A stretch of 64,000 nucleotides of DNA from Proales similis (lineage: Eukaryota > Rotifera > Eurotatoria > Ploima > Proalidae), in assembly GCA_019059635.1 (NCBI GenBank), contig JAGVRJ010000007.1, positions 496,001 through 560,000 on the forward strand, in the 5' to 3' direction. The notes below the pieces were generated by a model. It searched no databases and had not been told where the DNA came from. It saw nothing but the letters and a program-made list of their open reading frames with translations. Positions 6,636 to 34,973 of this stretch are shown here, piece by piece (the stretch's first letter is position 1; every line of letters starts with the position of its first letter). Both the position numbers and the translations under genes were made by a program.

Positions 6636-7849
6636 TCATGGGTCGAGTCAATTAAAGTTAAATTTTGTAAATTCTTCTCCTTCTTTTTATTATTCGTTTG
6701 CGTCGGGACAGCTTCAGTCAATTAGCTGAGCCTCGTTTTTTTCGTTTTATGAGTTAATTGCGTGCTTGCCATTACTAATTTAAAAAATAAAAACCAGCAA
6801 AACTTCAAAATAAAAAAGTAAAAGATAAAGCCAAGTGTCAGGAATAATCTAACTATCCACAGGCTGGAAAAATTTGAGTTTTTCTCACTTGATTGAGCAG
6901 ACAAACGATCAAAGAAAATACTGGAGATGATTAATTTCATTTTTTTTCACAACAGATCGAGCAAGCGAATCGAGCTCATTCAACTCTCGTCAAGAGAGCC
7001 ACCTATGAGTGGTGCATGTTAAAACTTTTGCAGGTCAATCAATTCTTCTGAAGAACAGTGAATGTGAGAACTAGACGAAAAAGAGCAGGACGCGGATTAG
7101 TCAAGGCGTTTTCATGCTAGATTTAAATCCAGAGCGTGCTGGCTGATTCGAATTAGAAATCAAAACATCGAGGAGCTGGACGCAAATTAATTATCTGTTA
7201 ATTAATCTCTCGGTCAGGGCGAATGATAGAGCGAGCAAGTGAGAGTCAATTGATATTGACGAGCAGCTGAGCTGATAAAGAGCCACTGAATGCCTAAACA
7301 AACAGGCGAGAGTGTTTATGGCGCCAGTAGAATAACAATAAAGCATGGAGAGGTTGAGATCCCCGCAATTAAGCACGGACACTTTGCGCTAGGCTGACAC
7401 TGAAGGACCAAGTCGCTTCATAAATCATTCAGTTCCAAGCTGTCCAATCAACAGTGTAAAGGTCAAATTCGCCCTATTTGTTTACCGTCAATCTGGCCTA
7501 AAGCAACCACGGACACGGAATAAGAAATGGAGAGAAATCGATCGAAATTCAAGTCGATCAAATGAAACTAGACATCAAGTGAATTATGCTTCTCTTGTAA
7601 AAGCAAGTGTTTGTCGAAAACTGGGACGTTGTTACGCTTCGTTGCCTAATTTTCGAATGCGAGTGACACGCCACCATTCATCTGTTTCTTGACGAAGAAA
7701 ACCAATTAAATGAAAGCTTGGGTGCCTTCTGACTAACGTATGTCACGATTAAGGGCAAGTTTGATAGCGGTCGTCAAGTGATCAAAGAAACATGGGGCAA
7801 ATACATGCAGATTGAGCAATTGAAGTATATTTATTTACAAATTGGCGCT
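6636..7849. other. Intergenic between HES and a minus-strand gene (tail to tail)
   Basis: About 1.2 kb with no recognisable gene. It should contain the 3' UTRs and polyadenylation sites of both convergent genes: AATAAA-like sequence near 6786 on the plus strand is compatible with HES mRNA ends. AT-rich, otherwise featureless to my reading. Confidence 0.4.
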
Positions 7850-31745: not shown

Positions 31746-32754
31746 GCCAAACGCCCTTCTAACTCTTGTCTACAGCAACAACAGCATCTTTTCAGCTTTT
31801 ATTTTCGACGACTGTAAAATGCCAACTAGTCGGCGCACTGGTTTAAACGGCGGCTCTACACATTAAATATACACATTTATATATATAAAAAATGTCTTCT
31901 CCTTCTACTCACACTCTTTAGCTCTAAATTAATAAATGAGATCAGCGGCCGTCAAAGAGCTTGTCTCTAGTGCATTTAGGGCTTCAATTTGACTTGAACA
32001 GAGTAGACAATCGAAGACAATCGGTGCAAAGAGAAAGAGAGAAAAGTGAGAGAAAGAATAAAGAGTAGAGTGGGCACGAACTGATTGCGACCAAGACAAT
32101 AAATATTGAGCAACGCTTTGACTTGAAGCATAAATCGCAAATCAGTCTAAAGAAGTAGAACTGAGCAAACATGTGGGTAGGAATTTAAAAAAAATAAAAG
32201 CATAAAGAAATGTGCGAGACATGTGCATGTGCATGCACGAGTCTCGCCGCTCGCACTCGCGCATATAAAACGCGAACGGATTTTATCAGGCTGAAGCAGA
32301 GTGGCGACACCCATCTTCACAGCGTAAGCAACCACATCAAAATGATGAGTTGAAAATCAAGTTGTTTACCGAGGACTCATCAGTTTTTCTCTCTTGCTCT
32401 ATTTCATTTATCGTCGCCCAACGCCGATCTTATCTTTGCTCGGCCACAAACGCTTGGCCAGCAACGCTCTTTCTTTACCTGGTTTTAGTTCAAATTTATT
32501 CAAATTTATGCTTATTGAAACACTTTGGCCACGTTTCGTCAGATTTGATCGAGCAAAAAAAAAATTTTTTTTGCTTTTTTGCCTCGTTATGCTATATATC
32601 GCTGGAAAACTCCTCATAAGCATTTTGGGCCGCGTCTATTTAAGTCAGGCCATTCTGCTCGCTTGCCTCAAATTAAATTCACTTGAATTGGTGAAACTAG
32701 AAACTCGCATTTCGCAAAGCCGGTTATTTTCATCGTTTTAACTCAACATTCAAC
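31746..32754. other. Intergenic between PSMB3 and AHCY
   Basis: About 1 kb. It starts with the PSMB3 3' end (AATAAA near 31930) and ends with the AHCY promoter and 5' UTR. A TATAAAA element lies at about 32264-32270, with another AT-rich element TATATA near 32593. Open frames here are AT-rich and unconserved. No gene seen. Confidence 0.45.
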
Positions 32755-34973
32755 ATGTCGTCCAAGCCTTCCTACAAAGTTGGTAAGTTCTAGTCGACTG
32801 CTACTGGGCCAAGAATTCGCTTTAATTCAAATCTCTTGTGTTTTTCTAAGCCGATATCAGCCTGGCTGAATGGGGCCGTCGTGAGATTGAGCTCGCCGAG
32901 TACGAAATGCCCGGTTTGATGCATATGCGTCGAGTTTATGGCCAGAGCAAGCCGCTCAAGGGCGCTCGCATTGCTGGCTGCCTCCACATGACCATCCAGA
33001 CCGCCGTTCTCATCGAGACTCTCACCGAGCTCGGCGCTGAGGTCCAATGGTCGAGCTGCAACATTTTCTCCACTCAAGATCATGCTGCCGCCGCCATTGC
33101 CAAGACCGGTGTTCCCGTCTATGCCTGGAAGGGCGAGACCGAAGAGGAGTACCAGTGGTGCATTGACCAGACCATCGTCTTCCCTGACGGTCAGCCACTC
33201 AACATGATCCTCGACGACGGTGGCGATCTCACCTCGCTCGTCTACGAGAAATACCCGCAGTACTTGCCCGGTAAGTGTTGGATTCCAAGAGGCTCCGACT
33301 GCTCTCTGCATTGATGATGATTGTGTCTTCATGCACCACTATCTGAGTTGATAAGCGTGCTGAGAAATCATCCACAATCAATACGATCTGAAATGTAAAT
33401 CGAGAGAGAAAATGCTGTTTACTAGATGATGATGAACACTCGTTAATGCCTCTGAGACCCAAATTAATGATGATCTCCTGGCTAGAGTACTGAAGGGAAT
33501 ATCTTTTAAACAGAGCGACCGATATGATGATAACTTCCTGAAACCTGACTATCAATGACGATATCCTTGTTTCAGACTAGAGTCGCTGAGCCGGTTCGCA
33601 TTCTCTCGTTTAGTCCAGAGCCTCTTGACTTGAGCCCTCAAGTTTATTCGTATTTCAATCTTATTCACGAACCATTAAAGGTATCCGAGGTATCTCGGAG
33701 GAGACCACCACCGGTGTTCATCACTTGTACAAGATGATGAAGGAAGGTCGACTCAAGACCCCCGCCATCAACGTCAACGACTCGGTCACCAAGGTACGCA
33801 TTGAGGCACAAGTTGCGTTCACTTGATAAAATGATGAAACATCATGCACCACTCTGAGCAATCGATGCTGAGAGTTAACTCAAATGATAATCTGATTGAT
33901 CTCAAGTGCACACGCAATCCTTGTTGAATTGGATGAGAAACTAATTTTGGATCTAATTTTTAGAGCAAGTTCGACAACTTGTACGGCTGCCGCGAGTCGC
34001 TCGTTGACGGTATCAAGCGAGCCACCGACATTATGTTGGCCGGTAAGGTCGCTGTCGTCGCCGGCTACGGTGATGTCGGCAAGGGCTGTGCTCAGGCTCT
34101 GCGAGCTTTCGGCGCCCGAGTGATCATCACCGAGATCGATCCGATCAACGCTCTCCAGGCGGCTATGGAAGGTTACGAAGTGACCACCATGGAGGATGCT
34201 GCTCCTCGAGGCCGAATCTTTGTAACCACCACCGGCTGCAGCTCCATCATCCGACCTGAGCACTTCCAAGTCATGCACGACAACGCCATTGTCTGCAACA
34301 TTGGTCACTTTGATGTCGAGCTCGACGTTGCTTGGCTTAACCAGAACTCGACAGAGCGAGTCACCATCAAGCCACAGGTAACTAAACTTGAAGCTCTTTT
34401 GCTGGTCGAAATGCGCGCCAAAAGATGCTACTCTCTGTCACCACACTTGGTTGCCTGGTATCGTACCATGGTTTCATAGATTATGACAGAGATAGGAAAT
34501 TGGATCGAGATCCACCGGTTAGGATGCCCATCACTCTAACTGATCTAAATCGTCCATACAAATTGCTCAGTGCTCTTTTGGCCACGCATTTCACTCGAGC
34601 AAATCTGACTCCGAGTGATGAATGCTAAAAACTTATTCAATTCTAGGTCGATCGTTATACCCTGCCTGATGGCCGTCACGTGATCGTATTGGCTGAGGGT
34701 CGATTGGTGAACTTGGGCTGTGCCCACGGCCACCCTTCGTTCGTCATGAGCAACTCGTTCACCAACCAGGTGTTGGCTCAGATCGAATTGTGGACTCGTG
34801 GCGACCAGTACGCCGTCGGTGTGCACATGCTGCCCAAGAAGCTCGATGAGGAGGTCGCCGCTGCTCATCTTGGTCACTTGGATGTCCAGCTCACCAAGTT
34901 GAGCTCTGAACAGTCCAAATACTTGGGCATCCCACAGGAGGGCCCGTTCAAGCCTGAGCACTACCGATACTAA
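32755..34973 (+). CDS. AHCY: S-adenosylhomocysteine hydrolase; introns host snoRNAs
   Basis: Five exons (32755-32782, 32851-33270, 33681-33793, 33964-34377, 34647-34973) give 433 residues (human 432). Signatures are '[22 protein letters not shown]'-type N-terminus, '[16 protein letters not shown]', '[17 protein letters not shown]', '[12 protein letters not shown]', the NAD site '[19 protein letters not shown]', and the C-terminus ending 'FKPEHYRY', whose Lys and Tyr close the NAD site. The enzyme reversibly cleaves S-adenosylhomocysteine to adenosine and homocysteine with bound NAD+, removing the product inhibitor of methyltransferases. Codon use in the exons is more biased than in neighbours, fitting high expression. 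Introns 2, 3 and 4 are longer than elsewhere in the window because they carry snoRNA sequences. Confidence 0.98.
33302..33408 (+). ncRNA. Box C/D snoRNA in AHCY intron 2, SNORD33-like guide
   Basis: C box ATGATGA 33314-33320, D' CTGA 33343-33346, C' TGATAA 33349-33354, D CTGA 33388-33391. A closing stem is formed by GCATT (33308-33312) with AATGT (33392-33396), with a further CTCTCT/AGAGAG pairing outside. The 13 nt before D' (33330-33342, CATGCACCACTAT) pair with the conserved 18S rRNA segment GTGGTGGTGCATG. By the D-box-plus-five rule the fifth base pairs with the U that corresponds to human 18S Um1326, the SNORD33 target. The guide in human SNORD33 is nearly the same sequence, but sits before its D box. 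The guide before D is unassigned. Confidence 0.8.
33415..33513 (+). ncRNA. Box C/D snoRNA in AHCY intron 2, target uncertain
   Basis: Perfect 7-bp closing stem CTGTTTA (33415-33421) / TAAACAG (33507-33513). C box within ATGATGATGA 33426-33435, D' CTGA 33452-33455, C' TGATGA 33468-33473, D CTGA 33490-33493. The guide before D' contains CTCGTTAAT, complementary over nine bases to a conserved 28S segment ATTAACGAG, which is suggestive but weak. The guide before D (ends TGGCTAGAGTA) I cannot assign. Confidence 0.75.
33516..33598 (+). ncRNA. Box C/D snoRNA in AHCY intron 2, 28S rRNA guide
   Basis: C box ATGATGA 33524-33530, D' CTGA 33538-33541 (or 33545-33548), C' TGACGA about 33556-33561, D CTGA 33586-33589. 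Closing stem CGACCG (33516-33521) with CGGTTCG (33592-33598), one bulge. The bases before D (33573-33584, CAGACTAGAGTC) are complementary over 12 nt to the highly conserved 28S segment GACTCTAGTCTG. The fifth base upstream of D predicts methylation of the U in GACU of that segment. Confidence 0.75.
33820..33908 (+). ncRNA. Box C/D snoRNA in AHCY intron 3, SNORD32-like guide
   Basis: Perfect 7-bp closing stem CACTTGA (33820-33826) / TCAAGTG (33902-33908). C box ATGATGA 33831-33837, D' CTGA 33854-33857, D CTGA 33892-33895; the C' box is degenerate. The guide before D' (33843-33853, CATGCACCACT) pairs with the same 18S segment as the intron-2 RNA. Here D' is two bases closer, so the fifth base pairs with the G corresponding to human 18S Gm1328, the SNORD32 target. 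Confidence 0.82.
34410..34563 (+). ncRNA. Possible H/ACA snoRNA in AHCY intron 4
   Basis: The 3' hairpin is readable: outer stem GGATCGA (34502-34508) with TCGTCC (34550-34555), an internal loop on both sides (candidate pseudouridylation pocket), and inner stem GTTAG (34518-34522) / CTAAC (34536-34540). An H-box-like ATAGGA (34492-34497) precedes it and ACA (34558-34560) follows three bases before the proposed end. The 5' hairpin is less clear, so the 5' limit is a guess. Confidence 0.4.

Follow-up and report, generated by a model that had tools for sequence, protein, structure and literature searches.

Candidate Box C/D snoRNAs, Three of Four with Predicted rRNA Targets, in Two Adjacent Introns of an AHCY Gene That Groups with Rotifers

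Results and Discussion

The AHCY gene and its introns

The stretch of DNA analysed here (64 kb, in the following called the window) carries on its + strand, at positions 32755–34973, a gene for adenosylhomocysteinase (AHCY). It consists of five coding exons, stop codon included (32755–32782, 32851–33270, 33681–33793, 33964–34377 and 34647–34973), which are spliced in frame to a protein of 433 amino acids. The gene is intact: all exons join in frame and every intron is bounded by GT..AG. The protein matches AHCY proteins over its full length, with 85% to Brachionus calyciflorus, and also solved AHCY structures, e.g., 9pdh. Of the 120 matches listed, 118 (all except P0001 and P0002) were combined with the protein of the window in a phylogenetic tree, which was constructed by a quick method with midpoint root; the protein was found in a set of 52 rows together with both Brachionus rows (SH-aLRT 97), and the animal is therefore likely to be rotifer-like.

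Upstream of the gene a TATA-like sequence, CTATTTAAG, is present at 32636–32644; a clear TOP/TCT start just 3' of it was not seen by eye. Relatives of AHCY were also detected in 205 stretches of viral contigs, which may be phage-borne or mis-binned; the best 80 of the 205 (L005–L084) showed at most 71% identity to the piece of the window's AHCY that exon 4 encodes.

Two adjacent introns of the gene are of interest. Intron 2 (33271–33680, + strand, 410 nt, ends GTAAGT..TTAAAG) contains units 1 to 3, and intron 3 (33794–33963, + strand, 170 nt, ends GTACGC..TTTTTAG) contains unit 4, as described below. All four units are in sense orientation within introns of this conserved and intact gene, which is the situation of intron-hosted snoRNAs. 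Intron 1 possesses no CTGA; in intron 4, CTGA occurs twice (34540 and 34605), both times upstream of the sole exact C box of that intron (34615).

Anatomy of the four units

Boxes were read as RTGATGA for C and as CTGA for both D' and D. Unit 1 (33302–33408, + strand) has its C box at 33314, D' at 33343 and D at 33388; its closing stems are CTCTCT/AGAGAG and TGCATT/AATGTA, the latter with one G-U pair. Unit 2 (33415–33513, + strand; C 33426, D' 33452, D 33490) is enclosed by an external stem of seven perfect base pairs, CTGTTTA (33415–33421) with TAAACAG (33507–33513). In unit 3 (33515–33599, + strand) the C box is at 33524, D' at 33545 or 33538, and D at 33586; the closing stem, GCGACCG/CGGTTCGC, is bulged. 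Unit 4 (33812–33918, + strand; C 33831, D' 33854, D 33892) has an inner closing stem of seven perfect base pairs, CACTTGA (33820–33826) with TCAAGTG (33902–33908), and outside of it a second stem of 7 bp, GTTGCGT/ACGCAAT, with one G-U pair.

Thus, C and D boxes joined by a stem were present in four of four units (external in unit 2, bulged in unit 3), and an internal D' box CTGA was likewise found in all of them. The C' box, judged by eye, is clear and exact in unit 2 (AATGATGA) and degenerate in the other three units, with TGCTGAG in units 1 and 4 and AATGACGA in unit 3. An earlier note on this DNA had described four C/D'/D units with closing stems in two adjacent AHCY introns, two of the stems being perfect over 7 bp. 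This anatomy was confirmed, at the same positions, and the two perfect stems are those of units 2 and 4; the claim of C' boxes in all four units holds clearly for unit 2, those of units 1, 3 and 4 being degenerate. The closing stems were also present in the minimum-energy folds of all four units. Compared with shuffled sequences, only the fold of unit 4 was clearly better (z −4.04; units 1, 2 and 3: −1.49, −0.92 and −1.81, respectively). A multiple alignment of all four units was uninformative, since the sequences are too divergent.

Comparison with Rfam

At the curated cut-offs, no Rfam match was obtained in the whole window. When matches with E values up to 1 were admitted (whole window, both strands, 4227 families), there were two, and these coincided with units 1 and 4. 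Both concerned RF00300 (snoZ221/snoR21b), with 31.1 bits for unit 1 (window-wide E 0.012) and 29.6 bits for unit 4 (window-wide E 0.033), below the cut-off of 44. A local scan of 761 bases gave E values of 1.5e-4 (unit 1) and 3.9e-4 (unit 4) for the same family, besides weaker matches to Me18S-Gm1358, Me18S-Um1356 and SNORD33; among these were unit 1 with RF00133 (SNORD33) at 25.3 bits and unit 4 with Me18S-Gm1358 at 24.1 bits. With E up to 10, the local scan listed 23 matches, every one of them to a C/D-box family and 21 on the + strand. Unit 3, in a scan of 101 bases, matched RF00276 (SNORD52) with 15.6 bits (E 0.32; cut-off 45, which was not reached). A covariance search had been suggested in the earlier note as a check; it gave matches to RF00300 at units 1 and 4 and no unit at or above a curated cut-off. 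Units 1 and 4 are likely to be functional counterparts of RF00300 that score below the threshold for members.

Elsewhere in the window a weak match to SNORD12 was noticed at 6920–6990 (+ strand; 19.6 bits, the cut-off being 43; a search of 301 bases gave E 0.17).

Predicted targets in ribosomal RNA

Incomplete rRNA sequences of other eukaryotes were used in place of the animal's own. The 18S sequence was from an IMG/VR contig (L001) and comprised about the last two fifths of the molecule; the 28S sequences were from two contigs of contaminated MAGs (L003 and L004), which together comprise most of it. All of them are eukaryotic according to Rfam. The records of contigs L001–L004 class them as viral (IMG/VR) or as MAGs of prokaryotes, and their rRNA is eukaryotic; apparently they are contaminants or mislabelled. 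The base to be methylated was taken as the fifth upstream of box D or D', following the rule given in PMC5199042.

The D' guide of unit 1, CATGCACCACTAT, forms 14 contiguous pairs with 18S rRNA (L001; score 11.9) and places a U at position 5. The D' guide of unit 4, CATGCACCACT, forms 12 contiguous pairs with the same molecule (L001; score 10.6) and places a G at position 5; this G is located two bases beyond the target U of unit 1. The D guide of unit 3, CAGACTAGAGTCG, showed 14 contiguous pairs with 28S rRNA in L004 (score 13.3) and 11 in L003 (score 10.3), with a U at position 5. From sequence context and shared Rfam guides, and without an alignment for numbering, the predicted targets would be 18S U 1269/1326 (yeast/human) for unit 1, 18S G 1271/1328 for unit 4 and 28S U 2421/3904 for unit 3. 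According to PMC8817022, Um1269/Um1326, Gm1271/Gm1328 and Um2421/Um3904 (yeast/human) are guided by snR55/U33, snR40/U32A and snR78/U52, respectively, and the same sites (human 18S U1326, 18S G1328 and 28S U3904) are methylated in Arabidopsis too. The two 18S sites (human Um1326 and Gm1328) appear also in PMC3511168, with yeast numbers lower by two, and yeast methylation at all three sites is mentioned in PMC5199042.

Background values were obtained in two ways. Among 127,246 20-mers from the window (which for this purpose excluded the two AHCY introns), a score of at least 10.3 was reached by only 1 to 3 at each of the four segments with these sites. The share of 6000 random 20-mers which paired equally well anywhere in the rRNA was 0.003 for the D guide of unit 3, 0.014 for the D' guide of unit 1, 0.062 for the D' guide of unit 4 and 0.086 for the D guide of unit 2. 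Pairing to some position in rRNA is thus only moderately unusual, and it was only when the pairing had been seen that the known sites were assigned. The remaining guides (unit 1 D, unit 2 D', unit 3 D', unit 4 D) were at background, with shares of 0.11 to 0.79, for the last two fifths or so of 18S and most of 28S rRNA; targets in the remaining rRNA could be missed. Units 1, 3 and 4 pair over about ten or more bases, on rRNA of other eukaryotes, with a base known to be methylated at the fifth position from the box, and one target, not named in the earlier note, can be predicted with confidence for each of them.

Relation to known guide families

Unit 4 resembles the SNORD32/snR40/AtsnoR21 group, which acts on 18S Gm1328 (human; Gm1271 in yeast): it has the same guide and D' box, CAUGCACCACU-CUGA, and the same predicted G. 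Its C' box, UGCUGA, resembles that of RF00300 (snoZ221/snoR21b), and guide plus box are common to unit 4 and the consensus sequences of RF00300 and Me18S-Gm1358. The name snoMe18S-Gm1358 comes from Drosophila. The hosts differ; the human relatives of unit 4 are located in RPL13A. In chicken, the relatives are contained in KPNB1 (PMC2653536), an unrelated host.

Unit 1 shares its predicted U with the SNORD33/snR55/AtsnoR34 group (18S Um1326 in human, Um1269 in yeast; RF00133), to which it is weakly matched. The consensus of SNORD33 carries CAUGCACUACCAUCUGA at the 3' D box, whereas the guide of unit 1 is at D', and by its sequence unit 1 is nearer to RF00300 with two added bases than to SNORD33. 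Units 1 and 4 have an 11-base guide, CATGCACCACT, in common, and unit 1 has two extra bases between this guide and box D'. According to the rule of the fifth base, these two bases alone would shift the methylated position by two, so that the neighbouring U takes the place of the G. An origin of the two units by duplication within AHCY would be a guess. A third exact CATGCACCACT at 7008–7018 (− strand) was considered as a further copy; it lacks C and D boxes in its surroundings and was read as a chance occurrence.

Unit 3 corresponds to the SNORD52/snR78/AtsnoR37 group (28S Um3904 in human, Um2421 in yeast; RF00276), with an identical guide, CAGACUAGAGUC, followed by one base and then CUGA. In the SNORD52 model, this guide is read as the D' guide of a unit starting 27 bases past the C box of unit 3, whereas in unit 3 it is located at D. 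Units 1, 3 and 4 would represent known guide families, and guides of a familiar kind, in a new host.

As in other intronic clusters of snoRNAs in protein-coding hosts, the units are intronic and in sense orientation, and their gene is conserved and presumably of broad expression. Unlike the usual intronic clusters, three units share a single intron of 410 nt, and the host encodes a metabolic enzyme.

Working guides, decayed copies or chance

C and D boxes are short, none of the units exceeds an Rfam cut-off, and a fortuitous arrangement of boxes and stems in two introns had to be considered. A scan for exact triplets of C, D' and D boxes, with spacing limits that were fixed post hoc, i.e., when the units were known, returned these four units alone from the + strand of the 64-kb window, and one triplet from the − strand. 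In 2000 shufflings of both introns the mean number of units was 0.047 and the maximum 2, compared with 4 observed; in 40 shuffled windows (both strands) the mean was 0.45 and the maximum 3, compared with 5 in the real window (the four of AHCY and the one on the − strand). The latter triplet (16956–16871, − strand) matched no Rfam family with an E value of 1 or less and is within the expectation from shuffled windows; it was discarded. A looser scan carried out earlier (C, D and a nearby stem; D' not required) pointed to seven places in the window, of which those touching units 1, 3 and 4 were correct and that at unit 2 joined the C box to a wrong D box; the other three were at 34615 (+ strand), 47377 (− strand) and 16956 (− strand). 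On the strength of the shuffled introns, chance was rejected as the origin of the arrangement. Moreover, three of the guides are directed precisely at conserved methylation sites, and the sole two Rfam matches with E up to 1 in 64 kb are units 1 and 4; that the units are accidental is very improbable.

A different question is whether some of the units, unit 2 foremost, are decayed or unexpressed copies from duplication inside AHCY and not working guides. In the local scan of 761 bases, no Rfam family matched unit 2 even when E values up to 10 were admitted. It lacks a stem next to the boxes, its external stem beginning 13 bases past box D, and its guides are close to background: the D guide forms 9 (L004) or 11 (L003) pairs with 28S rRNA (score 10.3, random share as given above), and the D' guide forms 9 pairs with 28S rRNA (L003; score 9.0, share 0.30), in which positions 1 to 4 next to the box are unpaired. 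In addition, the D guide points, as a weak prediction, to a 28S C one base 3' of the target U of unit 3, which is where a drifting copy might be directed. On the other hand, the C, D', C' and D boxes of unit 2 are all intact, and its external stem is perfect over 7 bp. We regard decay as possible, although rather unlikely. Unit 2 has no safe target, and a 28S site beside that of unit 3 would be less certain than the other three predictions.

The explanation which we prefer, and hold to be very probable as a whole, is that the four units are box C/D snoRNAs guiding methylation of rRNA, with AHCY as host by virtue of broad expression. Observed features of the units are boxes, stems, sense orientation within introns and, with the fifth base before D or D' as reference, complementarity of guides to rRNA from other eukaryotes; expression, processing and methylation by the four predicted guides we infer. 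The core proteins of box C/D particles are fibrillarin, NOP56, NOP58 and SNU13. The four units would likely be released as snoRNAs from spliced AHCY introns, and the released RNAs would direct fibrillarin to 2'-O-methylate rRNA at 18S U1326 (unit 1), 18S G1328 (unit 4) and 28S U3904 (unit 3; all in human numbering), whereas unit 2 would guide a less certain 28S site.

AHCY as a probable host gene

In searches of open-licence full-text literature, AHCY was not reported as a snoRNA host, as judged by titles and the beginnings of abstracts, with supplementary tables outside the scope; an earlier mention is possible. This is in agreement with the earlier note, whose author knew of no such description. 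A search joining snoRNA, rotifer and host gene yielded no paper on rotifer snoRNAs by its title, and in a search linking the methionine cycle to snoRNA hosts the term snoRNA host was absent among the matches listed, i.e., 12 of 1,623.

The earlier note had seen a functional reason in the choice of host: production of the guides from AHCY transcripts would tie their supply to the clearance of SAH, which arises in the reaction of fibrillarin and is inhibitory. AHCY and box C/D guides do act on two sides of one reaction, as is established biochemistry, and four units in one gene are a strong local concentration. The abundances of snoRNAs and their hosts, as summarised in PMC8176728, can be cited in both directions, since 60% of expressed human snoRNAs correlate positively with the host and 40% are uncorrelated or negatively correlated. 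Promoters with dual starts can also separate the output of host and snoRNA (PMC6954239). According to PMC3511168, the placement of snoRNAs can shift, the main constraint being broad expression of the host; their location drifts among such genes, and evolved co-expression was not considered adequate by those authors to explain the pattern. The occurrence of relatives of unit 4 in the unrelated KPNB1 of chicken speaks likewise against coupling, and selection for a pairing of AHCY with guides cannot be shown from the gene of one animal. A functional choice of host thus appears very unlikely.

A more far-reaching version would make AHCY a dedicated host in this lineage: each transcript would yield four guides which spend SAM together with the enzyme which removes SAH, so that methylation of rRNA and flux through the methyl cycle would rise together, and the cluster would have grown by duplication in the gene, with shifts of one or two bases between guide and box leading to neighbouring rRNA targets, one of them a new site in 28S rRNA next to Um3904. 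This we consider equally improbable. From the published comparisons, i.e., drift, mixed correlation with the host and the location in KPNB1, drift from one broadly expressed host to another is, on present evidence, the best reading of the placement in AHCY. AHCY would then serve as host most likely by its steady and broad expression, as suggested by known host genes, and not by its role in clearing SAH.

Conclusions

The four units, if they are the snoRNAs which they appear to be, would add the gene of a metabolic enzyme to the hosts of intronic snoRNAs, and three of them are predicted to guide methylation at rRNA sites of ancient origin, shared from yeast to human, in an animal with an AHCY gene which groups with rotifers. 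Units 1 and 4 illustrate, in compact and natural form, how a change of two bases between guide and box could exchange one conserved target for its neighbour. Should the pairing of AHCY with guides recur in other lineages, the coupling of rRNA methylation to the methyl cycle would become testable.
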